A stretch of DNA of 64,000 bases from Streptomyces sp. NBC_01264 (lineage in GTDB: Bacteria > Actinomycetota > Actinomycetes > Streptomycetales > Streptomycetaceae). Position numbers and translations under genes: made by a program. The stretch is from positions 1,488,001 to 1,552,000 of the forward strand of contig NZ_JAPEOX010000002.1 in the NCBI RefSeq assembly GCF_026340675.1, in the 5' to 3' direction. The notes beneath the pieces were generated by a model. The model was not told the DNA's origin. It ran no database searches and saw nothing but the letters and a program-made list of their open reading frames with translations. Positions 26,944 through 39,917 of the stretch are shown here, in pieces (position 1 is the stretch's first letter; each line of letters begins with the position of its first letter).

Positions 26944-28026
26944 TCAGCGCCGCCGGACGACGACGAAGTCGGCGAGTGCGGTGAGCTGTTCACGGACCTC
27001 TTCCGGCAGGTAGACCGCGTCGAGGGCCTCGAGGGCGGCGTCGTACTGCCGCCTCGCCTCGGCGGCGGTCCACGCGCGGCCCCCGGCCTCCTCGATCAGG
27101 GCGGCCCGGTAGGCGAACTCCGCCTCGTCGAAGAGCCCGTCCGGCACGGCTCCGGCGGCCCCGGCACCCGCGTCGGCCGCCAGTACCGCGGCGAGGTGTT
27201 CCGCGGCCGGGCCGCCGGCCTCCAGTGCCGCGCACACCGGCAGGGACTTCTTGCGCTGCTTGAGGTCGCTCCACGCCTGCTTGCCGGTCTGCTCCGGCGC
27301 GCCCCAGATGCCGAGCAGGTCGTCGACGGCCTGGAAGGCGAGGCCGAGGTGGTACCCGTAGCGTCCCAGGGCGTCGGCGGTCACGTCGTCGGCGCCGCCC
27401 AGGACGGCGCCTATGGCGACGGCGCAGGCGAGCAGCGCGCCGGTCTTGTTGCCCTCCATCTCCAGGCATTCGGCGACCGTCGCCCGGTCGCGCTGCTCGA
27501 AGGACATGTCCTGGGCCTGGCCGTCGATCAGCTTGCGGGTCGCGGTGTTCAGCAGGCGGGTGGCGCGGTTCGCCTCGACGGTGCCCAGTTCGAGCAGCAC
27601 CTCGCCGGCGAGCGCCAGCAGCGCGTCCCCGACCAGGATCGCCTGGGCCGGGCCGTGCACCTTCCAGACCGTGTCGCGGTGGCGGCGCTGTTCGTCGCCG
27701 TCCATGAAGTCGTCGTGCAGCAGCGAGAAGTTGTGCACGAGCTCGACCGCGACCGCGCCGGTCACCCCCACCTCGGGCGGGGCGCCGGCGGCTTCGGCCG
27801 AGATCAGGGCGAGGGCGGACCGCAGGGCCTTGCCGCCGTCGCCGTCCGACGGGTTGCCCTCGGCGTCGATCCAGCCGAAGTGGTAGGCGGCGACGGTGTC
27901 CATGGGCGCCGCCAGCCGTCCGACGGCCTGGCGCAGCAGGGGCGCGGACAGGGTGCGCCCCCGCTCCAGCAGGCCGGGCACGTCAACGGCGCCGCGGGTC
28001 CTCGGCTTCACGTCCAGACGGGTCAT
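26944..28026 (-). CDS. Polyprenyl (geranylgeranyl-type) diphosphate synthase
   Basis: 360 residues. The first aspartate-rich motif is LLHDDFMDGD (DDxxD at 105-109) and the second is AVDDLLGIWG (DDxxG at 235-239). GGKALRSALAL near residue 65 binds IPP and KQRKKSLPVCAAL follows. The enzyme condenses IPP with an allylic diphosphate; residues before DDxxD (HNFSLLH) do not let me fix chain length. Its ATG overlaps the upstream monooxygenase stop (ATGA) and it is the last gene of the nine-gene operon, supplying the prenyl donor for the MenA-like transferase. Similar proteins also occur as cargo near family 2 encapsulins, but no shell gene is here. Confidence 0.9.
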   Translation of the reverse strand: MTRLDVKPRTRGAVDVPGLLERGRTLSAPLLRQAVGRLAAPMDTVAAYHFGWIDAEGNPSDGDGGKALRSALALISAEAAGAPPEVGVTGAVAVELVHNFSLLHDDFMDGDEQRRHRDTVWKVHGPAQAILVGDALLALAGEVLLELGTVEANRATRLLNTATRKLIDGQAQDMSFEQRDRATVAECLEMEGNKTGALLACAVAIGAVLGGADDVTADALGRYGYHLGLAFQAVDDLLGIWGAPEQTGKQAWSDLKQRKKSLPVCAALEAGGPAAEHLAAVLAADAGAGAAGAVPDGLFDEAEFAYRAALIEEAGGRAWTAAEARRQYDAALEALDAVYLPEEVREQLTALADFVVVRRR

Positions 28027-29231
28027 GGTGTTTCCTCCCAGAGGGGCCGGGCACCGTGCAGCCAGGCCATGTGCTGGTACATGTCGTCCTCGCCCATGGA
28101 CCGCAGCATCGCGTTGCGCACGCGGGCGGCCTCCCCGGCGGGGTGGTAGAGCTGTTCCCCCATCTCCCTGGCCAGGAGCTGGATGCGTGCGGTGCGCCGA
28201 CGCCGTTCGGCGTTGTACTTCTCCAGGCGCTCGGGTACGTCACCGAAGGCCGCCCCGCCGAGGACCTCGCCGAGCACCACGGCGTCCTCCAGGCTCTGGC
28301 ACGCGCCCTGGGCGGCGTACTGGAGCATCGGATGGGCCGCGTCGCCCAGCAGGGTCACCCGCCCGTCGGTCCACACGTCCACGGGGTCGCGGTCGCACAG
28401 CACCCACTCGCGCCACTCCTCGCCCAGTTCGAGGAGCCTGCGGGCCGGCCCGCGCACTTCCCGGAAACGGTCCCGTACGTGGTCCCGGGGCGCGGGCCGG
28501 CCCGACACGGCCGTGCCGGCGCCGTCGTCGATGGTCGCGGCGAGGTTCAGGTACTTGCCGCCCCCGATGACGTAGTGGACGAAGTGCCACCCGGGCGCCG
28601 CCCACAGCGTCACCGCGTTCCACCGCAGCTCCTCGGGGACCTTCCGCAGCGGTATCACCGAGCGGTAGATGGTGTGCCCGCAGATCCGGGGGTCGCCGTC
28701 GCCGACGAGCTGACCGCGGATCGCCGACCGGATGCCGTCGGCCCCGACGAGCAGGTCTCCCGAGAAGGTCCGGCCTTCCGCGGTGGACACGGTGACCCCC
28801 GAGGGGTCCTGCGCGTACGAGCGCACGGTGGCGCCGGACACCAGCTCGATGCCGTCCGCCGCACCGCAGGCCTCGAGCAGCGGCTGGTAGAGGTCGACGC
28901 GGTGCACCACCGCGTACGGGTTCGCGAACCGGCTGCGGTAGCGCTCGGTGACGGGAACGGTGGCGACGTTCTCGCCGGTCACCCCGTCCATGAACCGGAG
29001 TTCGGCGATGTACACCGCCCGCTCGCGCACCCTTCGGCCCACGCCCAGCCGGTCCAGGGCGTCGAAGGCGTTCGGGGCGAGCTGGATGCCCGCGCCGAGC
29101 TCGGTGAAGGCGCCGGCGCGCTCCAGGACCGTGACCCGGTACCCCTGCCGGGCGAGGGACAGGGCCGCGGCGAGACCGCCTATGCCCCCTCCGGCGACCA
29201 GTGCGTGCATCGTGGACTCCTCGGCGTTCAT
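28023..29231 (-). CDS. FAD-dependent aromatic monooxygenase (3-hydroxybenzoate 6-hydroxylase / salicylate hydroxylase type)
   Basis: 402 residues from ATG 29231 ([19 protein letters not shown]), overlapping the PhzE stop. Class A flavoprotein marks are GGGIGGLAAALSLARQG, GADGIRSAIRGQLVG (DG motif) and RVTLLGDAAHPMLQYAAQGA (GD motif). The early HRVDLYQPLLEACG and the closing MGEDDMYQHMAWLHG resemble 3-hydroxybenzoate 6-hydroxylases, which hydroxylate para to a phenolic OH to give a hydroquinone. Applied to 3-hydroxyanthranilate or its prenyl derivative this would create an amino-hydroquinone (inference). The start overlaps PhzE and the stop overlaps the polyprenyl synthase. Confidence 0.85.
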   Translation of the reverse strand: MNAEESTMHALVAGGGIGGLAAALSLARQGYRVTVLERAGAFTELGAGIQLAPNAFDALDRLGVGRRVRERAVYIAELRFMDGVTGENVATVPVTERYRSRFANPYAVVHRVDLYQPLLEACGAADGIELVSGATVRSYAQDPSGVTVSTAEGRTFSGDLLVGADGIRSAIRGQLVGDGDPRICGHTIYRSVIPLRKVPEELRWNAVTLWAAPGWHFVHYVIGGGKYLNLAATIDDGAGTAVSGRPAPRDHVRDRFREVRGPARRLLELGEEWREWVLCDRDPVDVWTDGRVTLLGDAAHPMLQYAAQGACQSLEDAVVLGEVLGGAAFGDVPERLEKYNAERRRRTARIQLLAREMGEQLYHPAGEAARVRNAMLRSMGEDDMYQHMAWLHGARPLWEETP

Positions 29232-31138
29232 GCCCGCAGCACCCCGCCGAGCAGCGTGCCGAGGATCCGCCGGCCCTCCTGGGTCAGGACGGACTCCGCG
29301 TGGAACTGGACGGAGGCGAAGCGGCGGCCCTCCAGGGCGTGGACCTCTCCGGTGTCCCGGTCCCTGCTCACCGCCACCCGGCCGTGGTCGGGATGGTCGA
29401 GGACGTCGGCCCCGGCGCGGGCGGCGAACGTGTTGTAGAAGCCCACCCGTTCCCGCCCTCCCAGCAGGTCGATCTCCCGCTGCACCCCCTGGTTGGGCGT
29501 CGCCCGGCGGACCAGGTCGAGGCCGAGCACCCCGCTCAGCACCTGGTGGCTCAGGCACACCCCCAGGAAGGGCCGCTCCCGGGCGAGCAGCCGGGACACC
29601 TCGGCCCGCAGGTGCGCGATCTTCGGATGCCCGAGGTCCCCGGGGTCTCCCGGTCCGGGCCCCAGGACCACCACGTCGTGCGCCGCGGTGTCGTACGGCT
29701 CGTCGAACCGCCGTACGGTCACCTCGGCGCCCAGGGAGCGGATCAGCTGGGCGAGCATCGCCGTGAAGGTGTCCTCGGCGTCCACGACCAGGACCCGGCG
29801 CCCCGCCAGCTCGGCGGTGGCCCCGTCCCGGCCGCCCGGTTCGTCCAGCCAGAACCCGGCGACGGTCTCGTTGCGCAGGGCGAGCGCCGCGCGGACCTCG
29901 GGACGGTCGGCGAAGCGGCTGGGGGCGGGACCTGCCAGGGCCGCGAGCAGCCCGGCCGCCTTGGCCCGGGTCTCGCGCGCCTCGGCCTCGGGATCGGAGT
30001 GGCGCACCAGCGTGGCACCGACACCGATGCGCAGCCGGCCGTCCACGGCGATGTCCGCCGTCCGGATCAGGATGGCGGAGTCCAGGCTCCGGGCGCCCGA
30101 GGCGTCCCGCCCGATCAGCGCGGCCACGCCGCTGTAGTAGCCGCGTCCGGTGGTCTCGTGGCGGCTGATCACCCGGGCGGCGTTCTCCAGCGGTGCGCCG
30201 GTGACCGTCGGGGCGAACAGGGTCTCCCGGAGGATGTCGCGGACGTCGAGGTCGGTCCTGCCCTCGATGAGGTACTCGGTGTGCGCGAGCCGGGTCATCT
30301 CCTTGAGGTAGGGGCCGACGAGCCGCCCGCCGGACGGGCAGAGGCGGGACATCATCTTCAGTTCCTCGTCGACGACCATGTACAGCTCGTCGGCCTCCTT
30401 GCGGTCGGTCAGGAAGGACAGGACGCCGTCGAGCGTGGGGCCGCCCGGGGGGTAGCAGTAGGTGCCGCTGATGGGGTTCATCACCGCCGTGCCGCCCCGG
30501 ACGCTGATGTGGCGCTCGGGGGTGGCGCCGATGAGCATCCGGTCGCCGGTGTGCACGAGGAAGGTCCAGTAGGCCCCCGCCTCCCGTTCGAGGAGACGGC
30601 GGAAGAAGGACAGGGCTCCGACGACCGAGCAGTCCGGCAGCCAGGCCGTGAAGGTCCGCCTGATCACGAAATTCGCGCCCTCGCCGGCGCCGATCTCGTC
30701 GGCGACCACCCGGCGCACGATGTCCGCGTACGCCTCGTCCGAGAGGTCGAACTCCTCGGACTCGACCTTGACGGGGTCGTCGGGCAGCCGGCGCAGGGCA
30801 TCGGCGAGCGGGAGGTCCTGCCGGTCCGTGACGGTCAGCGCGATCAGCGGCTCGCCGTCGTCGAGGGCGGCGAACCCGCGCTCGGTGATCTGCCGGTACG
30901 GCACCAGGGCGAGCACCTCGCCGCCACCGCCCGCCGGGGCCGCGGGGTCCGGCAGCGGGAGGTCGGCCAGCGTCGCGCAGGCGGCCGTGTCGCCCAGCAG
31001 TACCTCCAGGGTGCCGGGGGTCGTGGACTGCGGGCGGTACAACAGCGCGAAGGCTCCCGTGGAGCCGTCCAGGACCCGGGCGAGGAGGTCGGGGGCCGCG
31101 GCGCCGGGCGGGGCCACGGCCCGGACCGCCCCGGTCAC
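29228..31138 (-). CDS. phzE-like: PhzE-like 2-amino-2-deoxyisochorismate synthase (fused TrpE-like and glutamine amidotransferase)
   Basis: 636 residues from GTG 31138 (GTGA with the isochorismatase stop). The N-terminal chorismate-binding half shows [40 protein letters not shown] and [11 protein letters not shown]. The C-terminal class I glutamine amidotransferase has [12 protein letters not shown], the nucleophile Cys in [12 protein letters not shown] and the His-Glu pair in VQFHAESVL. This single-chain fusion is the PhzE type, which makes ADIC from chorismate and glutamine and stops before pyruvate loss, unlike TrpE/G. It is the committed first step of the cluster. The 3' neighbour and the PhzD-like gene agree with this reading. 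Confidence 0.92.
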
Positions 31139-31797
31139 CGCCGGCCCCCTGCCGGTGCGGCGGCCAGCGCCTCGCACACGGAGGCCGTCGTCACCACGGC
31201 GGCGCACCGCTCGGCCGCGTACTCCAGCGCGAGCTGGTGGTAGGAGGCGGAGAAGTCGGCGACGGCGTCGCCCACGAGGAACGGCTGGATGTCGCGGGTG
31301 AACGCGTCCACCGCCGTCATCAGGACCCCCACGTGCGCGTAGACCCCGCAGATGACGAGTTGGTCGCGGCCCTCGGACCGCATCCGTTCCAGCAGGTCCG
31401 AGTTGAAGAAGGCGCTGTAGCGCCACTTGGTGAGCACCCAGTCGTCCGGGGTCGGTTCGAGTCCCGCGACGACCTGACGGTGTTCGGGCGACGGGCGCAT
31501 CCCGGGGCCCCAGAAGTCCGCGAGCAGGCCCCGCTCGACGAGGTTCATCCCGCCGGGCTGGGCCGTGTAGGCGACCGGGATGCCGAGTTCGGCGCAGCGC
31601 CCGCGCAGCAGGATCGCGTTGCCCACGAGGGCGTCCCGGGGGGAGGTTCCCCTCTCGAACGGCCGAAGGAAGTACTCCTGCATGTCGTGGACGAGCAGCA
31701 CCGCGCGCCGCGGGTCCACCCGCCAGCCGACCGCCGCGGGAGGGAACTCGCCGGGCAGGGGCATCGGGTAGGGATCGATGGAAGGGAGGCCTGCCAT
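31135..31797 (-). CDS. phzD-like: PhzD-like isochorismatase (ADIC to trans-2,3-dihydro-3-hydroxyanthranilate)
   Basis: 220 residues. It matches PhzD along its length as I recall it: [28 protein letters not shown] (catalytic Asp in VHDMQ), [23 protein letters not shown], the catalytic Lys in [19 protein letters not shown] and [20 protein letters not shown]. The enzyme hydrolyses the enol ether of ADIC to give DHHA and pyruvate. Its GTGA overlap with the PhzE-like gene couples steps one and two. No PhzF, PhzA/B or PhzG is present, so DHHA is not expected to go to phenazine. Confidence 0.92.
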
Positions 31798-31837
31798 GCG
31801 GTGATCGGTCCTTTCGGGATGCGGTCGGTGGAGGGCG

Positions 31838-31882
31838 GGGCAACACGGGCAACACGGGCTACAGGGGCTACAGGGGCTACAC
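31838..31882. repeat. Five tandem 9-bp units at the SDR/PhzD junction
   Basis: GGGCAACAC x2, GGGCTACAG x2 and GGGCTACAC occupy 45 bp. The repeat includes the TAG stop of the SDR gene and fills most of the 79-nt gap before the PhzD-like gene. It is the only long non-coding gap on this side of the operon. Confidence 0.9.
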
Positions 31883-32671
31883 CCCGAGCGTGGCCCCGCC
31901 GTCGACGGTCAGGCCCTGCAGGGTGATGTGCCCGGCCTCGTCCGAGAGCAGGAAGCGGATGGCGTGGGCGACGTCCTCCGGGCTCGCCACCTTTCCCAGC
32001 GGGATGCCGGTCCGGTAGGCGTCGGGGTTCCCCGCCACGGAGGCGGCGACCGCGCTGCCGTCGGCGTGCATGCCGTGCAGCATGTGGGTGTCCGTGGATC
32101 CGGGGGCGACCACGTTGCAGCGGACGCCGTACCGGGCTGCTTCCAGGCCCATGCACTTGGTGAAGGCGATCGCCGCCGCCTTGGAGGCGGCGTAGGCGGC
32201 CATGTGCGAGCGGGCGGTGCCCGCGGCGTTCGACGCGACGGTGACGATCGAGCCCCTGCGGCGCGCGATCATGCGGCTGACCACGGCGCGGGACACGAAG
32301 AAGACCCCGTTCGCGTTGACCGCGAAGGTGAGGTGCCACTCCTGGTCGCTCAGGTCCGCGACCTCGCCGAGGCGGAGCACGCCGGCGGCGTTCACCAGGT
32401 AGTCGATGGGCCCCAGTTGCTCCTCCACCGCCTCCACCACGGCTTCGACCTCGGCGCTCGACGTCACGTCCGCCGGGTGACCCCGTACGGGCAGGCCTTC
32501 GGCGGCGAGCTTCTCGACCGTTTCCCACAGCTGCCCGTTGTCCAGGTCCACGGCGGCCACCACCGTGCCCTGCTCGGCGAGCAGCCGGACCACGGCCGAC
32601 CCGATGCCGCCGGCCGCGCCGGTGACCAGGGCCACTTTGCGGGCCATCCCGTCACTCATCCCGTCACTCAT
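31877..32671 (-). CDS. EntA/DhbA-like short-chain dehydrogenase (DHHA to 3-hydroxyanthranilate)
   Basis: 264 residues. The Rossmann motif is [12 protein letters not shown], the structural motif NAAG, and the catalytic Tyr-Lys pair lies in AAYAASKAA. The stretch [34 protein letters not shown] and [20 protein letters not shown] is characteristic of 2,3-dihydro-2,3-dihydroxybenzoate dehydrogenases (EntA/DhbA). In this context the substrate is the amino analogue DHHA, giving 3-hydroxyanthranilate. The N-terminus repeats MSDG twice (12-nt duplication), so the real start may be the second or third ATG. The start overlaps the DUF2834-like stop (ATGA). Confidence 0.9.
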
Positions 32672-33138
32672 CGCGAGGCCAACGTCGATACGGGCCGGAG
32701 GGCGGACCGGTCGGCGAACTCTTCGGCAGCGGAAGCCCGTTCACCCACCGCGATCCGCCCCTCGGCATCACGCAGGGCGGCGATCTTCAACTGGCGGACG
32801 AGCATGAAGAGGCCGTAGGTCACGATCAGGGCGATGGCCGGGGCCCCGACGATGTACGCCCATACGTGCCGGATGCCGAACCGCCGGCTCTCCACGATCA
32901 TGTACGCACCGACGGCCGCCCAGGTGAGCACCAGGTCCATGTAGACGAACTGGGTCGCCAGATTGGTCGTCGAGTCGCGCAGGAAGTTCTCGACGACCCC
33001 CAGCGCGCCGGCGTCGGCGTTCCGCACGACGAACGTGACGGCCATCCACCCCATGACGATCGAACCGATCAGGGCGGATGCCCCGTACAGGAAGCACAGC
33101 GCGCGGTCCTTCCCGCGCACCTCGCTCAAACGCGTCAC
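32668..33138 (-). CDS. Small DUF2834-like membrane protein
   Basis: 156 residues from GTG 33138, with GGGAGG five bases upstream. Four hydrophobic helices are visible (SALIGSIVMGWMAVTFVV, QFVYMDLVLTWAAVGAYMI, WAYIVGAPAIALIVTYGLFM). The VDL/MVESRR pattern between helices 2 and 3 (here MDLVLTW and IVESRRFGIRHVW) is like DUF2834 proteins. A 40-residue soluble tail follows. Its position between the BVMO-like and SDR genes suggests a role in handling a lipophilic product or anchoring the enzymes, but no function is known. Confidence 0.7.
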   Translation of the reverse strand: MTRLSEVRGKDRALCFLYGASALIGSIVMGWMAVTFVVRNADAGALGVVENFLRDSTTNLATQFVYMDLVLTWAAVGAYMIVESRRFGIRHVWAYIVGAPAIALIVTYGLFMLVRQLKIAALRDAEGRIAVGERASAAEEFADRSALRPVSTLASR

Positions 33139-33188
33139 AACTGCCTCCCAGGCATTGGATTTCGCCCCGCGGCCGACCGGCCGCGGGA

Positions 33189-34700
33189 TCACCGTTCGTA
33201 GCTGTAGTCGTCCAGGTCGAAGTGGCGGGCCCGCCAGGCCGCTTCGTAGGTGGAGGCGGGACGGACCGCCGGCGCGTCTCCGTGCTCGTCCAGGTAGTAG
33301 CTGTTCGTGCCCCGGCAACTCGGGTCCAGGAAGACGGTGTTGCGCATGCGGCGCAGGTTCCGGCGGAAGGAGCCGTCGTGCTTCTCCGGGCGGATGACCG
33401 CTTCCGTGGCACGGCGCCGCCGGGCTTCGCCGATCACCCTCAGGGCGTGGGTCACCTGGTAGTCGATCATTCCGAACCAGGAGCCGCCGGTGAAGGAATA
33501 GGGGCCCACGATGAACCACAGGTTCGGGTAACCCTTGATCGACGTGCCCTCGTAGGTCTGGAACCGCTCGGTCTTCCAGAACTCCTTGAGGTCCCGGCCC
33601 CCTTGGCCGCGCATCGGGAACGGGGGAAGGTTGTCGAGCACGTGGAATCCGGTGGCCAGGATCAGCACGTCGAGGTTCTGTTCCTCGCCGTCCGTGAGGC
33701 GGATGCCGGACGGGGTGATCTCCTCGATGGGCTCGGTGACCAGCTCGACGTCGGCGCGGGTGAAGGCCCGCCAGTAGCCCTTGCTCAGCGAGGGCCGCTT
33801 GCAGCCCACCCGGTAGGAGGGCGTCAGCTTGCGCATCAGCGTGGGGTCGCCGCCCACCTGACGCCGCAGGTACAGCTTGGACGCCGCTTCCCCGGCCCTC
33901 GCGAGGAAGGGGAACCGCCGGTAGTGGACCATCGCGATCACGAAGCTGAGCTCGGTCACGACGTCGGTGAGCAGCCGGATCGTGCGCTGCGTCGCGGGAA
34001 CCGTGCGGAAGAGCCGGCGGACGGCCTGCGGCACCGCGAAGTCCGGCTTCGGGAGCAGCCAGATGGGGGTCCGCTGGTAGACGTGGAGCTGTTCCGTGCG
34101 CTCGGCGATCTCCGGGACGATCTGGACCGCCGAGGCCCCGGTGCCGATGACTCCCACGCGCTTGCCGTCCAGATCCAGGGACTGGTCCCACTGCGCCGTG
34201 TGCACGAGGTCGCCCTTGAACGTGTCGAGGCCGGCGATGGCTGGGGTCTTGGGCTTGGTGAGCCATCCGGTGGCGCAGATGACGAAGCGCGCCGTCAGCG
34301 AGGTGCCGTCGCCGAGGACCATCGTCCACATGTGCGCCGATTCGCTGTAGGCGGCGCGTTTGACACGGGAGTTGAAGCGCAGGTGGGGCCGCAGACCGTA
34401 CGCGTCGATGCAGTGGTCGGCGTAGGCCTTCAGCTCCTCTCCCGGAGGGAAGACCCGGGACCAGGACGCGAAGGGTTCGGCGGCGAAGGAGTAGGAGAAG
34501 GCGGAGATGTCCACGGCGACACCGGGGTACTTGTTGGCGTACCAGCTGCCGCCCACGTCGTCCCGCTCCTCCAGGACGACGAAGTCGTCGATGCCCGCCC
34601 GGCGCAGGCCGAGTGCGGCTCCGATGCCCGAGAACCCCGCGCCGATGACGAGGACTTCGTGGTCGGGATCGACCGGGCCCGGCGGCCGCGTCTCCCTCAT
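33189..34700 (-). CDS. Baeyer-Villiger-type flavin monooxygenase
   Basis: 503 residues from ATG 34700. The first dinucleotide site is VLVIGAGFSGIGAALGLRRA (GxGxxG), followed by GGSWYANKYPGVAVDI. The BVMO fingerprint FxGxxxHTxxWP/D appears as FKGDLVHTAQWD, and the NADPH site is VGVIGTGASAVQIVPEIA. ATGW and ATGF motifs are present. Members insert oxygen next to ketones or N/S-oxidise. The role in this pathway is not evident: ring or side-chain oxidation after prenylation is possible. Five bases separate it from the MenA-like gene. Confidence 0.87.
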   Translation of the reverse strand: MRETRPPGPVDPDHEVLVIGAGFSGIGAALGLRRAGIDDFVVLEERDDVGGSWYANKYPGVAVDISAFSYSFAAEPFASWSRVFPPGEELKAYADHCIDAYGLRPHLRFNSRVKRAAYSESAHMWTMVLGDGTSLTARFVICATGWLTKPKTPAIAGLDTFKGDLVHTAQWDQSLDLDGKRVGVIGTGASAVQIVPEIAERTEQLHVYQRTPIWLLPKPDFAVPQAVRRLFRTVPATQRTIRLLTDVVTELSFVIAMVHYRRFPFLARAGEAASKLYLRRQVGGDPTLMRKLTPSYRVGCKRPSLSKGYWRAFTRADVELVTEPIEEITPSGIRLTDGEEQNLDVLILATGFHVLDNLPPFPMRGQGGRDLKEFWKTERFQTYEGTSIKGYPNLWFIVGPYSFTGGSWFGMIDYQVTHALRVIGEARRRRATEAVIRPEKHDGSFRRNLRRMRNTVFLDPSCRGTNSYYLDEHGDAPAVRPASTYEAAWRARHFDLDDYSYER

Positions 34701-34705
34701 GGCGC

Positions 34706-35626
34706 TCACAGCGCCAGGCCGATCGCCAGCAGGGACCCGAACGCGAGCAGCAGCAGACAGGTGTGCTCCAGCGCCGGAATCAGGTCGCGGCCGGCCGCTC
34801 CGCCCAGCACCCGGCGCACTGGCAGGACGGCGACCGGGGCCGCGCCGAGGACGAGGAAGGCCCCGGGCCGGGCGGAGGCGAGGAGCAGCGCGGACACGAA
34901 GGCCGCGGCGACGCAGAGGACGTAGAACTGCCGGGTCGGTCCGGCGCCCATCCGTACCGCGAGGGTGATCTTCCCCGCGGCCGCGTCGGTCGGGATGTCG
35001 CGGAGGTTGTTGGTGGTCAGCAGCGCGACCGCGAGGAAGCCGAGGGGCACGGACGCACCGAGGGCGATCGGGGGCAGGTGCACGAGCTGGATGGCGACCG
35101 GGGCGCAGACGAAGACGACCCCGTGGTAGAGGAAGATGCTGACCTCGCCGAGCCCGCGGTAGCCGTAGGGCCGCGCCCCGCCGGTGTAGAACCAGCCGCC
35201 GAGGGCCAGGGACACGGTCAGCGCGAGCACCCACCACGAGACCAGTACGGCCAGGATCACCCCGGCCAGGGCCCCGACCGCGAACAGGACCAGCCCGTGC
35301 CGGAACACCTGCCGGGGCGTGGCCTGTCCCGAGCCCACGAGCCGGGCCGGGCCCGCCCGGTGGTCGTCGACGCCGCGGATCCCGTCGCTGTAGTCGTTGA
35401 AGAAGTTGGTTCCCAGGACGAAGCCCAGGACGAGCACGGCCGTCAGTGCGGCGTGCCACCGGTCGACGGTCCCGGCCTCGGCGGCGATGGCGAGGCCCAC
35501 CGCGAGCGGGGCGAAGGTGACGGGCAGGGTCTTGAGCCGTGCGCCGGCCACCCAGCCCCGCAGGGCGGCGTACCGCACCGGCTGCTGCTGTTGTTGCTGA
35601 TGCTCCTGCTGCTGCTGAAGGCTCAC
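34706..35626 (-). CDS. menA-like: MenA-like UbiA-superfamily prenyltransferase with poly-Gln N-terminus
   Basis: 306 residues from GTG 35626 (GTGA with the methyltransferase). The first Asp-rich motif is NFFNDYSDGIRGVDD and the second NNLRDIPTD; seven or more helices follow the usual UbiA pattern (e.g. AAFVSALLLASARPGAFLVL). RLVGSGQATPRQVF after the first motif is typical of MenA, which replaces the carboxylate of dihydroxynaphthoate with a prenyl chain. Streptomyces usually make menaquinone by the futalosine route, and the neighbours make an aminohydroxybenzoate, so prenylation of that acid is inferred. The N-terminal run of 10 Gln among 12 residues is odd. Confidence 0.88.
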   Translation of the reverse strand: MSLQQQQEHQQQQQQPVRYAALRGWVAGARLKTLPVTFAPLAVGLAIAAEAGTVDRWHAALTAVLVLGFVLGTNFFNDYSDGIRGVDDHRAGPARLVGSGQATPRQVFRHGLVLFAVGALAGVILAVLVSWWVLALTVSLALGGWFYTGGARPYGYRGLGEVSIFLYHGVVFVCAPVAIQLVHLPPIALGASVPLGFLAVALLTTNNLRDIPTDAAAGKITLAVRMGAGPTRQFYVLCVAAAFVSALLLASARPGAFLVLGAAPVAVLPVRRVLGGAAGRDLIPALEHTCLLLLAFGSLLAIGLAL

Positions 35627-36360
35627 TTCTTCGTCCCCGTGCCCAGGTAAAGGACGGACGTGGACTTGGTGCGCACCATGGTGACCTCGTCGAGCCGGCC
35701 GACCGCGAAGCGGGCCATCTCGCGCATCCGCGGGCGCAGGCCGAGGAGTTCGAGCTCGACGCCGTTCTCCCGGGCGGCCCGGGTCAGCCGCTCCCGGTTG
35801 ACGAAGAGCCGGTGGTCGTGTGTGCCGCGGGGCGGCCGGCCGGGGAGGGGGAGGTTCTCGGCGAGGGTGATCGAGACCAGCCGGGCCACCCGGGTGTCGG
35901 CGATGGTGTCGACGATCAGCGTGCCGCCGGGACGCAGGACCCGGCACGCCTCCGCCACCACGGCGTAGGGATCCGGTACGTGCTCCAGGCACTGGCCTGC
36001 GGTGACCACGTCGAACGACTCGTCCTCGAAGGGGAGTTCGGCCACATCGGCCCGTACGACCTCGTCGAACCCGTGCCGCAGCGCCTCGCGGAGCGACATC
36101 TCCGACAGGTCGACACCGACCACGTGGTAGCCCTTGGCCGCCGCGTGCGGGCCGAACAGCCCCCCGCCGCAGGCGATGTCGAGCAGAGCGGCCTGCTCGT
36201 TCCGGGCCGGGGGAACGAATTCCGCACGGGCCCGTGCGATCCAGCTCAGTGGCGCGAGCGCCCCCCTGGGATCCCACCACTCATCGGCGAGCCCGTCGTA
36301 ATCCGAGATGAAGTCCTGCCGGATTTCCGACCTGTCCTTTTCTTCACTGCGCGTAAGCAA
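35623..36360 (-). CDS. ubiG-like: UbiG-like SAM-dependent O-methyltransferase
   Basis: 245 residues from TTG 36360, with GGAGG nine bases upstream fixing the start. The N-terminal signature DYDGLADEWWDPRGALAPL is very close to UbiG (ubiquinone O-methyltransferase). The SAM-binding motif is LLDIACGGGLFG, followed by VGVDLSEMSLREA and VTAGQCLEHVPDP. The enzyme probably methylates a phenolic OH on a prenylated ring. First gene of the nine-gene operon; it is divergent from the FAD oxidase, with a shared promoter region of 189 nt. Confidence 0.88.
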   Translation of the reverse strand: MLTRSEEKDRSEIRQDFISDYDGLADEWWDPRGALAPLSWIARARAEFVPPARNEQAALLDIACGGGLFGPHAAAKGYHVVGVDLSEMSLREALRHGFDEVVRADVAELPFEDESFDVVTAGQCLEHVPDPYAVVAEACRVLRPGGTLIVDTIADTRVARLVSITLAENLPLPGRPPRGTHDHRLFVNRERLTRAARENGVELELLGLRPRMREMARFAVGRLDEVTMVRTKSTSVLYLGTGTKK

Positions 36361-36549
36361 AGCAGTTTACCTCCGCCCATCAGTCGCACTGCGGTCAGCC
36401 TTTCCGAGAAGCCTGACAGGGACTGATAGAGCCCCCATGGAGCATCCCTATAGCCGACGGCCCGCGAGCGGCCCGCGGCCTTCCGGAGCGGGGCCGCGTC
36501 CGGTTACTGTCCCCTGGATTCCCCGACTCCGCGAAAAAGGTGGCACACG
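36361..36549. promoter_or_regulatory. Divergent promoter region of the prenyl-aminobenzoate cluster
   Basis: 189 nt contain both operon starts. The ribosome sites are GGAGG (36370-36374, minus) and AAGGTGG seven bases before the plus-strand ATG. I see no clear consensus promoter and no strong palindrome. No cluster-specific regulator gene lies in the cluster. Confidence 0.5.
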
Positions 36550-37815
36550 ATGAGCGCATTCAGCAGCGATTTCGGCCGGTCCCTCTCGATCACCCCCGAA
36601 AAAGTGGTCCGGGAAGGGACGGACGGGGAGATCGGCGGCCTCATGGCCGACGCGGCCGCCTCCGGCAAGGACACGGCGGTACGGGGCGTCGGCCGCTCGT
36701 GCAATACGCAGACGCTCGCGTCCGGGACCGTGCTGGACAATTTCCGCGAGGACGCGGAGCCGCGCTTCACGGGCGGGGAGCACCTCGTGGAAGTCCCGAG
36801 CGGAATCACCTGGCTCGCGCTGGAGAAATGGCTGAACGGGCACGGGCGCGCCAACCCCGTCCTGCCCAGCTATCTGAATCTCACGGTGGGCGGGACGCTG
36901 TCGATCGGGGGTTTCGGACACGGTTCCCTGCGGTCGGGACTTCAGATCGACCAGGTGGAGGAGATCGAACTCGTCGACGGAACGGGACGTTCGCGCACGT
37001 GTTCCCGCCAGGAGAATGCGGAGTTGTTCCGGTTCGCCCTGGGCGGCCTGGGACAGGTGGGTTTCATCAGGACCGTGGTGCTCCGTACCGCGCCGTACCG
37101 GGCGGTCACTCCGGTCTCCCGGATTCCGCACACGGGAATATCGGAACTCGCGGAATTCATGAAGAACGTCGCCGACGATCCTGCGGTTTCCGGCTATTTC
37201 GGCATGTACGACCGGACCTCGTGGTATTCGCAGATCGCTCTCGCGGCCGAGCCCGCGGAAGCCGTGGAGGCCGGCGAACCGGGCACCGTGCTGCCCGCAC
37301 CGGACTACTCCCTGCTGCTGCACCAGGAGGTCGACCAGCACCTCCTGCCCGTCCTCGAGGACGCATCCCGCGTGAACCTCTGGGCGGACTACGTCTTCGA
37401 CGGGGCGGGTTTCGAGGGGATCACGAAGACGCTGGAGGAGCTGACGCGCGAATCCCCGTTCGCCGACAACCTGATCAGCCTGTACTTCCTGGTCATCAAG
37501 CGTCCCGAGGGGGCGACGCCGTTCGTCTTCGCGCCGTCGCTCGACACCCCGGTCCAGTACGGGATCGGCGTGTTCACCACCATCGAGAAGTCCGACTCCC
37601 ACGCGGTGGCCGAAACCCGCAGGGTGCTGCGCGAGCTGCTGGCGGCCTGCGCGCAGGCCGGGGGGCGCCCTTACCTGTACGGCTGCCACGAGCTGGACGC
37701 GGAGCTGCTGGAGGGCTTCTACGGTGCGGACGCGCTGCGGCGGCTGGAGTCCCTGCGCGAGGAGCACGCGCTGACCCGCTTCAACCCGCGGGCCTTCGGC
37801 GGCGTACGGCCGTGA
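36550..37815 (+). CDS. FAD-linked oxidoreductase (cytokinin-dehydrogenase-like)
   Basis: 421 residues. The PCMH-type FAD domain includes DTAVRGVGRSCNTQTLASGT, LNLTVGGTLSIGGFGHGSLR and VEEIELVDGTGR. The C-terminal domain has YYF-like substrate strands (FGMYDRTSWYSQIAL, LISLYFLVIKRPEGAT). Cytokinin oxidases bind FAD covalently through a His in G-x-G-H-S; here the position reads GVGRS, so the linkage is probably absent. The family oxidises C-N or C-O bonds of small molecules. It is divergent from the biosynthetic operon and likely a tailoring enzyme. Convergent to metG, with a hairpin between. Confidence 0.82.
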   Translation: MSAFSSDFGRSLSITPEKVVREGTDGEIGGLMADAAASGKDTAVRGVGRSCNTQTLASGTVLDNFREDAEPRFTGGEHLVEVPSGITWLALEKWLNGHGRANPVLPSYLNLTVGGTLSIGGFGHGSLRSGLQIDQVEEIELVDGTGRSRTCSRQENAELFRFALGGLGQVGFIRTVVLRTAPYRAVTPVSRIPHTGISELAEFMKNVADDPAVSGYFGMYDRTSWYSQIALAAEPAEAVEAGEPGTVLPAPDYSLLLHQEVDQHLLPVLEDASRVNLWADYVFDGAGFEGITKTLEELTRESPFADNLISLYFLVIKRPEGATPFVFAPSLDTPVQYGIGVFTTIEKSDSHAVAETRRVLRELLAACAQAGGRPYLYGCHELDAELLEGFYGADALRRLESLREEHALTRFNPRAFGGVRP

Positions 37816-37904: not shown

Positions 37905-39620
37905 TCAGGCCTCGGGGTTGCCGCCGAAGCGCTCCCGGTACGACTCCAGGTCGTCGTCGGTGATCTTCGCGAAGAGCACCGGCGGAACCGTGAACGGCGT
38001 GCCCGCCGGCACCGCGTCGAGGGACGTGGCCTGCTCCGGGGTGATCCACGTCGGGGTGTCGTCGGCGAGGTCGAACGCGGAGCGCATGGCGCGCGCCGAG
38101 GCCGGGATGAACGGCTCGGAGACCACCGAGTAGAGGTGGATGAGGTTCATCGCCGTGCGCAGGGTGAGCGCCGCGCCCTCCAGGTCGGTCTTGACCTCCA
38201 GCCAGGGCGCCTTCTCGTCGAGGTAGGCGTTTCCGGCGGACCACAGGGCGCGCAGCGCGGCCGCCGCCTTGCGGTACTGGAGCGCGTCCATGTGGCCCTC
38301 GTACTCGGCCAGCAGCTCGGCGATCTGCGCGCCCAGCTTGGCCTCGGCCTCGCCCGCGGGGCTGCCGGCCGGAACCTCGTCGCCGAACTTCTTGCGGGAG
38401 AAGGTCAGTACGCGGTTGACGAAGTTGCCCAGCGTGCCGCCGAGGTCCTTGTTCACCGTGGCGGTGAAGTGCTCCCACGTGAAGGAGGAGTCGTCGGACT
38501 CAGGCGCGTTGGCGATGAGGAAGTAGCGCCAGAAGTCGGCCGGAAGGATCTCCAGCGCCTGGTCGGTGAAGACGCCGCGCTTCTGCGAGGTGGAGAACTT
38601 GCCGCCGTAGTACGTCAGCCAGTTGAAGGCCTTGACGTAGTCGACCTTCTTCCACGGCTCGCGGGTGCCCAGCTCGGTGGCGGGGAACATCACCGTGTGG
38701 AACGGGACGTTGTCCTTGGCCATGAACTGCGTGTAGCGCACGTCCTCGGCCTCGTACCACCAGGACGTGTAGTCGCGGTTCTCGGGGTCGCCGTCCGCCC
38801 ACTCCTTGGTGGAGGCGATGTACTCGATCGGCGCGTCGAACCAGACGTAGAACACCTTGCCGTCGGCGGCCAGCTCGGGCCACGTGTCGGCCGGGACCGG
38901 GACGCCCCAGTCGAGGTCGCGCGTGATGGCGCGGTCGTGCAGGCCCTCGGTCAGCCACTTGCGGGCGATGGAGGACGCGAGCTGCGGCCACTCCTCCTCG
39001 TGCTCCGCGACCCAGGCCTCGACCTCGACCTGCAGCTTGGACTGGAGGAGGAAGAGGTGCTTGGTCTCGCGGACCTCGAGCTCGGTGGAGCCGGAGATGG
39101 CCGAGCGGGGCTCGATCAGGTCCGTGGGGTCCAGGACGCGGGTGCAGTTCTCGCACTGGTCGCCGCGGGCCTTGTCGTAGCCGCAGTGCGGGCAGGTGCC
39201 CTCGACGTAGCGGTCCGGCAGGAAGCGGCCGTCGACCGGCGAGTAGACCTGCCGGATCGCGCGCTCCTCGATGAAGCCGTTCTTCTCGAGCTGGCGCGCG
39301 AAGTGCTGGGTGATCTCGCGGTTCTGCTCCGAGGAGCTGCGGCCGAAGTAGTCGAAGGACAGCTCGAAGCCGTCGTAGACCGCCTTCTGGGCGTCGTGGG
39401 CCTGCGCGCAGAACTCGGCGACCGAGAGGCCGGCCGCCTTCGCGGCGAGCTCGGCGGGGGTGCCGTGCTCGTCGGTGGCGCAGATGTAGAGGACGTCGTG
39501 GCCGCGCTGGCGGAGGTACCGGGAGTACACATCCGCCGGAAGCATCGACCCGACCATGTTGCCCAGGTGCTTGATCCCGTTGATATAGGGAAGCGCGCTG
39601 GTGATCAGGTGTCGAGCCAT
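37905..39620 (-). CDS. metG: Methionyl-tRNA synthetase
   Basis: 571 residues from ATG 39620 ([20 protein letters not shown]); GGAG lies nine bases upstream. HIGH-type motif is seen as the HLGN of KHLGN and KMSKS-type as KFSTSQKRG. The connective peptide has a zinc knuckle [17 protein letters not shown] with four Cys. [10 protein letters not shown] and the anticodon-binding helices are present. It charges tRNA-Met. Streptomyces genomes may carry a second, different MetRS elsewhere; whether this is the only copy cannot be told. About 300 nt separate it from the next gene on the same strand. Confidence 0.95.
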
Positions 39621-39917
39621 CCTCGGATGCTCCATTTCATATATGCCGGTACAACGTGACGTGCGGTTCATCGTATCGAACCGCCGAAACGCCACGCCCC
39701 GCATTTCTTCGGGGTGGACTGGGGTACAGCACAGCACTGCGGAACCGCAGAACTGACGGGTGCAACGCAAAAGCGAGGACTGTGACCTCTCCGTCACGGC
39801 CCTCGCGCTGCGGCCATGGTACAGCGGGCCGGGCAGCCGCCGAACCGCCGTCCGCCCCGGTGGGACACCGCCCGCGGCCGCCCCGTCGCCGGTCCGCAGG
39901 GCGGCCCGGCGGCGGGG

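Follow-up and report, generated by a model that had tools for sequence, protein, structure and literature searches.

Gene content and organization of the unit

A 64,000-nucleotide stretch of the genome of Streptomyces sp. NBC_01264 (contig NZ_JAPEOX010000002.1, positions 1,488,001 to 1,552,000), here called the window, contains a minus-strand run of nine genes at 26944-36360 and, divergent from it at 36550-37815, an FAD_binding_4 oxidase. Families were assigned with NCBIfam models and their curated cut-offs, Pfam domains, and phmmer searches against the PDB. Read downward from 36360, the unit encodes a UbiG-like methyltransferase, a MenA-like prenyltransferase, a type-I Baeyer-Villiger-monooxygenase-like flavoprotein (BVMO), a DUF2834 protein, a DhbA-like short-chain dehydrogenase/reductase (SDR), PhzD, PhzE, a flavin monooxygenase (FMO), and a polyprenyl synthase (Table 1). 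Stop and start codons overlap by 4 bases at six of the eight junctions; with the starts chosen, the remaining two gaps measure 79 and 50 bases. Family calls and coordinates thus confirm the nine-gene unit and divergent oxidase described in a first-pass annotation of this DNA, and its view that 3-hydroxyanthranilate enzymes are joined here to a quinone-type prenylation is supported by the PhzE, DhbA, MenA, and UbiG matches. The gene order, which that annotation proposed to look for in other Streptomyces, recurs in Streptomyces sp. TBY4 (L013), where the same ten genes stand in the same order with 84-94% identity by gene; chance assembly of the unit is therefore excluded.

Table 1. Features of the unit, numbered from the first nucleotide of the window.
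Feature	Coordinates	Strand	Basis
Short-chain polyprenyl (geranylgeranyl diphosphate-type) diphosphate synthase	26944..28026	-	PF00348; first aspartate-rich motif (FARM) DDFMD with Phe at -5; second motif DDLLG
3-Hydroxybenzoate-6-hydroxylase-type FMO	28023..29231	-	NF006021; PDB 4bjy
PhzE, 2-amino-2-deoxyisochorismate synthase, MST and glutaminase fused	29228..31138	-	PDB 3r74
PhzD-like isochorismatase	31135..31797	-	PF00857; 4-base overlap with PhzE
DhbA/EntA-like SDR	31877..32671	-	TIGR04316
DUF2834 membrane protein, core member	32668..33138	-	PF11196
Type-I BVMO-like flavoprotein	33189..34709	-	Cyclohexanone, steroid, and phenylacetone monooxygenase matches; fingerprint
MenA-type UbiA-family prenyltransferase	34706..35626	-	NF004751, TIGR00751
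UbiG-like S-adenosylmethionine methyltransferase, TTG start chosen	35623..36360	-	TIGR01983
FAD_binding_4 oxidase, divergent	36550..37815	+	PF01565; PDB 6yaq

Genes for 3-hydroxyanthranilate supply

A PhzE/PhzD/DhbA-type gene set for 3-hydroxyanthranilate is present, without PhzF in the window. PhzE, with its chorismate-utilizing and glutaminase domains fused, has a full-length match to PDB 3r74 (residues 16-632, E 4.9e-216 by phmmer); in NCBIfam it matches anthranilate-synthase kin alone, all below cut-off. Pfam identifies the isochorismatase domain in the PhzD-like protein, and the DhbA-like SDR, which scores 330.2 bits against TIGR04316 (cut-off 300), would oxidize dihydro-3-hydroxyanthranilate to 3-hydroxyanthranilate. 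PhzF-family genes occur at four places in the genome, all of them outside the window, and a Pfam scan for PhzA/B and PhzG domains, covering the eight unit genes other than PhzE and no further part of the window, found none. As the first-pass annotation had held, this does not look like an ordinary phenazine locus: a phenazine cluster is rejected on the absence of PhzF from the window.

The flavin monooxygenase and its linkage

Among the 25 NCBIfam families shown, the FMO exceeds the cut-off for NF006021 (3-hydroxybenzoate 6-monooxygenase) alone, with 481.7 bits versus 459, and its best PDB match is the Rhodococcus jostii enzyme, Rj3HB6H (4bjy, E 4.8e-65). His216, Tyr220, and Gln304 of the window FMO align to His213, Tyr217, and Gln301 of 4bjy, the last of which we take to have an active-site role. 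His213 and Tyr217 are described as active-site residues of Rj3HB6H (PMC5472690). Both are kept in all 18 FMOs compared, and Gln301 in 17 of the 18. Both flavin monooxygenases listed by the first-pass annotation are present, with the refinement that one, the FMO, is of the 3-hydroxybenzoate-6-hydroxylase type and tied to the 3-hydroxyanthranilate genes. Its family membership suggests that it probably hydroxylates 3-hydroxyanthranilate para to the 3-hydroxyl.

Across the genus, 46 FMO matches (E <= 1e-140) are found in 40 of 295 genomes. The 20 strongest loci lying away from the prenylation core described below were fetched, leaving out the matches in G000, G060, and G278 and weaker ones; genes in these second-cluster loci, as in the relatives discussed later, were called with a codon-position script, not a gene finder. 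PhzE, PhzD, and the SDR lie within about 10 kb of the FMO in 14 of the 20 fetched loci, the SDR in 16, and MenA, the BVMO, and the methyltransferase in none. The FMO therefore belongs with the 3-hydroxyanthranilate genes, not with the prenylated stage, and since this linkage holds without the prenylation core it most likely acts on 3-hydroxyanthranilate itself, probably hydroxylating it before prenylation.

The window's own genome has such a second, prenyl-free 3-hydroxyanthranilate cluster on contig 1, at approximately 5.065-5.081 Mb (L123, L124), with genes for 3-deoxy-D-arabino-heptulosonate 7-phosphate (DAHP) synthase, an SDR, PhzD, PhzE, a 107-amino acid protein with a weak, below-cut-off YdhR match, a second SDR, transketolase, 5-enolpyruvylshikimate 3-phosphate (EPSP) synthase, the FMO, chorismate synthase, and a major facilitator superfamily pump. 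Members of this prenyl-free family (L123-L124 and 14 of L165-L184) share with the window the set SDR-PhzD-PhzE-FMO, each protein being 63-75% identical to that of the window (63-69% in its own genome), but have no MenA core; most add DAHP synthase, and in several a second SDR, a YdhR-like small protein (below cut-off), EPSP synthase, and chorismate synthase are found as well. Their products may be aminoepoxyquinol antibiotics, of which LL-C10037alpha and enaminomycin are examples; nothing was found on LL-C10037alpha in the open-license literature.

The MenA-like prenyltransferase

The MenA-like protein exceeds the cut-offs of both NF004751 (291.1 versus 264 bits) and TIGR00751 (189.8 versus 102.15 bits), and yet does not look like a housekeeping enzyme. 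Two genes of the MqnA/MqnD family were found in the window genome, whereas no MenD passes its cut-off (the search did not extend to the remaining Men genes), so 1,4-dihydroxy-2-naphthoate (DHNA) is not an expected substrate. Of 295 genomes of the genus, just 8 have a match to the MenA-like protein (E <= 1e-20); one of these is the window's, and in each of the other seven (L006-L012) the methyltransferase and BVMO genes adjoin the MenA-like gene. In a tree of 84 rows, with 27 core MenA sequences, 54 further ones from actinobacteria, and three UbiA-family paralogues from the window's genome (391, 430, and 305 amino acids), the core sequences form one group with support of 100/100, in a tree where some rows are one genome under two handles and the bootstrap had not settled. 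The three paralogues are far off (path 17-28), at which distance their exact placement is meaningless. A housekeeping menaquinone enzyme is rejected on the strength of rarity, the Mqn genes, the lack of a MenD over cut-off, and the separate tree group, so that the product class proposed by the first-pass annotation comes through the tree comparison with housekeeping proteins on which it had been made to depend.

A conserved four-gene core with variable partners

In a scan of named genomes, the best 80 loci of 420 MenA relatives were kept, each reaching 10 kb from the MenA gene or to the contig end, so that absences are local. The methyltransferase, MenA, BVMO, and DUF2834 genes occur together in all 20 of the loci L013-L032 (MenA identity 66-89%), which come from Streptomyces, Kitasatospora, Wenjunlia, and one record titled Streptosporangium nondiastaticum. 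BVMO and DUF2834 are found in none of the other 60 kept loci (MenA identity 41-51%; some are short contigs), where the methyltransferase gave weak matches in some loci and nothing stronger. In the core tree the window joins L013 and L014 in a subgroup (support 100/100) that has the FAD oxidase; among the 20 named core loci it occurs in L013 and L014 only. No cyclase was seen in the loci of these three. L023 ends at a contig end, and a small contig of the same genome (L129) has PhzE-FMO-synthase-methyltransferase pieces. The core tree places the record titled Streptosporangium nondiastaticum (L024) beside Streptomyces klenkii, and a protein source gives the name Streptomyces nondiastaticus; the title looks like a naming slip.

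Chain length in polyprenyl synthases is generally related to the residue at position -5 of the FARM, with alanine giving long chains and phenylalanine C20. The window synthase has phenylalanine at this position versus alanine in all 15 of the relatives' synthases that fit the motif pattern, and by this rule it is probably of the C20 type and theirs of a long-chain type; its best NCBIfam matches, both below cut-off, are the encapsulin cargo polyprenyl transferase (391.9 of 450) and IdsB (297.2 of 475). Genes resembling squalene-hopene cyclase (SHC) are found in 16 of the 20 related loci, 15 of them encoding proteins of 625-647 amino acids with DxDD, and are accompanied among these loci by an HpnE-like oxidoreductase (15 of 20) and cytochrome P450 (10 of 20). 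The window has no SHC-like cyclase (PF13243); elsewhere in its genome there are four matches, of which that at C2:1430328 is strong and the other three are weak. The remaining cyclase, that of L027, has 564 amino acids and no DxDD. At L027:17652-20641, from Streptomyces sp. SAJ15, this DxDD-less cyclase is found with a UbiH-like monooxygenase that has a squalene-epoxidase domain match, which suggests that cyclization in this variant may be started from an epoxide.

The aromatic supply varies as well. Genome-wide searches for PhzE and the FMO covered the genomes of 19 of the 20 related loci (that of L018 was left out) and the window's own. The FMO (E <= 1e-80) is present in 15 of these 20 core-bearing genomes, and the five without it (L017, L020, L025, L029, and L032) are exactly the core loci with a luciferase-like monooxygenase, a gene sought within the loci only. 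These five loci also carry genes from a set comprising tryptophan dioxygenase, kynureninase, and a hydrolase, possibly a formamidase, though not always all three, and two of them have an O-methyltransferase; one member of each family was annotated. Kynureninase was not found in the L017 locus, tryptophan dioxygenase was not found in those of L029 and L032, and no kynurenine monooxygenase was seen in any of the five. Kynurenine-type supply takes two changes on the core tree, which with p-AU 0.145 does not reject one common origin. Both the chorismate and the kynurenine route lead to an aminobenzoate, which fits a MenA-type enzyme that displaces a carboxylate. The prenyl synthases of L020, L025, L029, and L032 are 579-584 amino acids long; that of L020 is shown as a fusion with DUF6875, and in L017 DUF6875 stands alone. 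L024 and L028 have the core but neither a cyclase nor supply genes in reach; elsewhere in their genomes the FMO and an SDR lie in one region and PhzE and PhzD in another (L133/L134, L126/L127), as if the pathway were split.

Remaining enzymes and the edges of the unit

The BVMO has the fingerprint FKGDLVHTAQWD at residues 164-175, with Arg305 and Asp67, and matches cyclohexanone, steroid, and phenylacetone monooxygenases. The fingerprint FxGxxxHxxxW(P/D), the arginine, and the aspartate are kept in all 21 BVMOs (the window and 20 others), apart from a tyrosine for the first phenylalanine in L030. The aromatic head is the probable target of the BVMO, since loci retain it whether a cyclase is present or not. 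The UbiG-like methyltransferase passes TIGR01983 narrowly (108.1 bits versus 102.95); ubiquinone is not expected in this bacterial group. DUF2834 has four predicted helices in an AlphaFold model of low confidence (pLDDT 70, pTM 0.36), and the name "Terpene cyclase DEP1" given by the source for its homologue P0305 received no support from Pfam. The FAD oxidase matches 6yaq over residues 5-198 (E 4.4e-25), its N-terminal half being like cytokinin dehydrogenases.

On one side the unit is flanked by metG (37905-39797), which marks the cluster edge since it is the genome's only over-cut-off copy; for the same reason, a role as a resistance duplicate is ruled out. The opposite flank has a dipeptidase-like gene and an open frame that by eye resembles a permease. 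Elsewhere in the window, at 104-171 on the minus strand, Rfam gives a match to the small RNA ASdes (75.1 bits, gathering threshold 40).

Proposed pathway and alternatives

Taken together, the genes suggest that the unit probably directs the synthesis of an aminohydroquinone or aminoquinone with a prenyl chain, made by a route in which the FMO acts before the MenA-type enzyme. PhzE, PhzD, and the DhbA-like SDR would convert chorismate to 3-hydroxyanthranilate, which the FMO would hydroxylate para to the 3-hydroxyl to give 2-amino-3,6-dihydroxybenzoate. This acid would be gentisate-like, with the ortho-hydroxyl, para-hydroxyl, and carboxylate laid out as in DHNA on a single ring; an FMO of this type that makes a gentisate- or DHNA-like acid would explain how a MenA-type enzyme can act. 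The latter would exchange the carboxylate for a C20 chain from the cluster's own synthase, yielding 3-amino-2-geranylgeranyl-hydroquinone, the UbiG-like enzyme would methylate the prenylated product, and the BVMO and divergent oxidase would oxidize it further. All of the chemical steps, their order, the chain length, the methyl position, and the BVMO reaction are what we infer from the genes.

Several points weigh against this pathway. PhzE, PhzD, the SDR, and the FMO are all present in only 8 of the 20 core loci, which makes the supply genes looser partners than the core, and the other core loci have supply genes partly or wholly elsewhere or unseen nearby. PhzE homologues (E <= 1e-60) occur in 20 of the 20 genomes searched, so that finding PhzE by itself carries little weight. 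Of the 20 non-core FMO loci, 4 have none of the 3-hydroxyanthranilate genes nearby at an identity of at least 50%. The FMO would have to accept an amino group, and carboxylate exchange by a MenA-type enzyme on a benzenoid acid would be an extension of DHNA chemistry.

The pathway could differ in the use of the two monooxygenases. If the MenA-like enzyme prenylated 3-hydroxyanthranilate itself, as animal COQ-2 does, the FMO would act afterward on the prenylated ring; the precursor is indeed shared with the animal route and reaction order is not given by gene order, but linkage of the FMO to PhzE, PhzD, and the SDR in 14 of 20 loci without the prenyltransferase core indicates that its substrate probably exists unprenylated, and this order is unlikely. 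An FMO of the salicylate-hydroxylase type, hydroxylating the carboxyl carbon with loss of CO2 to give an aminoresorcinol prenylated at a free position, is very unlikely: salicylate 1-monooxygenase and decarboxylating relatives are also among the FMO matches, but the salicylate model TIGR03219 reaches 135.5 of 446.35, the sole family over cut-off is 3-hydroxybenzoate 6-monooxygenase, the active-site residues of that enzyme are conserved, and the MenA-type enzyme would be left without a carboxylate to displace. Oxidation of the ring amine by the BVMO, in place of ring expansion, is possible, though less likely than not, a judgment that concerns this enzyme alone. The Baeyer-Villiger-like flavoprotein LaPhzNO1 N-oxidizes phenazines (PMC7927275), so ring expansion is not a given, and retention of the core BVMO with or without a cyclase suggests that the aromatic part is probably its target; the conserved fingerprint, arginine, and aspartate, though those of a BVMO, are compatible with either reaction.

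The pathway could also serve another end. A respiratory, rhodoquinone-like electron carrier, made by a bacterial version of the route that animals take from 3-hydroxyanthranilate, would account for the quinone-type prenyltransferase and methyltransferase and for a window unit that lacks a cyclase and whose one synthase is linear and probably of the C20 type, and animals do make rhodoquinone from 3-hydroxyanthranilate via COQ-2 (PMC6656428). Against it stand the rarity of the MenA-like gene (8 of 295 same-genus genomes), the SHC-like, HpnE-like, and P450 genes added in 16, 15, and 10 of the 20 related loci, and a BVMO kept throughout. A C20 chain is, moreover, short for a membrane carrier. Such a carrier is decidedly unlikely, and the many relatives with SHC-like, P450, and HpnE-like genes point to specialized meroterpenoids in preference to a respiratory rhodoquinone. 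It is scarcely credible that the unit belongs to a pathway for a phenazine or a peptide with further genes outside it; PhzE and PhzD are common to phenazine pathways and some relatives may borrow them from a separate locus, but the window has no PhzF (its remaining genes being partly annotated), a DhbA-like SDR is present, and the unit ends beside the genome's only over-cut-off metG.

Comparison with known systems

The window enzyme shares with the MenA step of menaquinone synthesis its sequence family, over cut-off, and the proposed replacement of a carboxylate by a prenyl chain on a 1,4-dihydroxy aromatic acid; it differs in its own tree group, its place beside 3-hydroxyanthranilate genes, and a genome without an over-cut-off MenD. 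Rhodoquinone itself has its amine at a position not adjacent to the prenyl chain, unlike the predicted product. In animals it is built from 3-hydroxyanthranilate of the kynurenine pathway via COQ-2, with the amino group in the first aromatic precursor (PMC6656428), as proposed here, and five relatives have kynurenine-pathway genes. Differences are a MenA-type in place of a COQ2-type enzyme, supply from chorismate, an amine predicted beside the prenyl chain, and cyclases in relatives; the window unit resembles the animal route in precursor only. The rhodoquinone parallel drawn by the first-pass annotation thus holds for the shared precursor and is weakened by the position that the amine would take and by the SHC-like, P450, and HpnE-like genes of relatives. 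Bacterial rhodoquinone, also a prenylated amino-quinone as end product, is made from ubiquinone by RquA (PMC9814641), which adds the amine late, whereas the window pathway would have it from the start.

Two actinobacterial systems share features with the unit. BE-40644, an Actinoplanes meroterpenoid, is likewise an isoprenoid hybrid with a UbiA-superfamily enzyme, but its ring is reported to come from sedoheptulose 7-phosphate (a cyclitol), not 3-hydroxyanthranilate (PMC5133447). The Streptomyces cluster for the prenylated dihydroxyphenazines JBIR-46 to -48 combines PhzD/PhzE, the membrane-bound prenyltransferase Mpz10, and a ChnB-like monooxygenase; it differs in having PhzB/F/G and mevalonate genes and a Mpz10 substrate without a carboxylate. 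Mpz10 has 18.6% identity to Escherichia coli MenA and falls outside the known types (PMC4044012). No description of the present cluster family was recognized in the open-license literature, and a prior description elsewhere is possible.

Implications

A wider proposal, tentative and on the doubtful side, is that these Streptomyces and Kitasatospora clusters represent a third natural route to amino-quinone lipids, besides RquA and animal COQ-2, in which a MenA-type enzyme would decarboxylatively prenylate 2-amino-3,6-dihydroxybenzoate, the aromatic supply would change between chorismate and tryptophan, the terpene cyclase would be exchanged, and an invariant BVMO would expand or open the ring to give a new meroterpenoid scaffold. 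If the proposed pathway is true, a vitamin-K-type prenyltransferase has been turned to natural-product synthesis on a ring that bears nitrogen, and a 3-hydroxybenzoate-6-hydroxylase-type enzyme making a mimic of DHNA would explain the substrate of the MenA-type enzyme. The cluster family would then be defined by a fixed four-gene core around which aromatic supply, chain length, and cyclization vary; its product class would be predictable and testable by mass, and rhodoquinone synthesis in animals could be compared with a concrete bacterial case.

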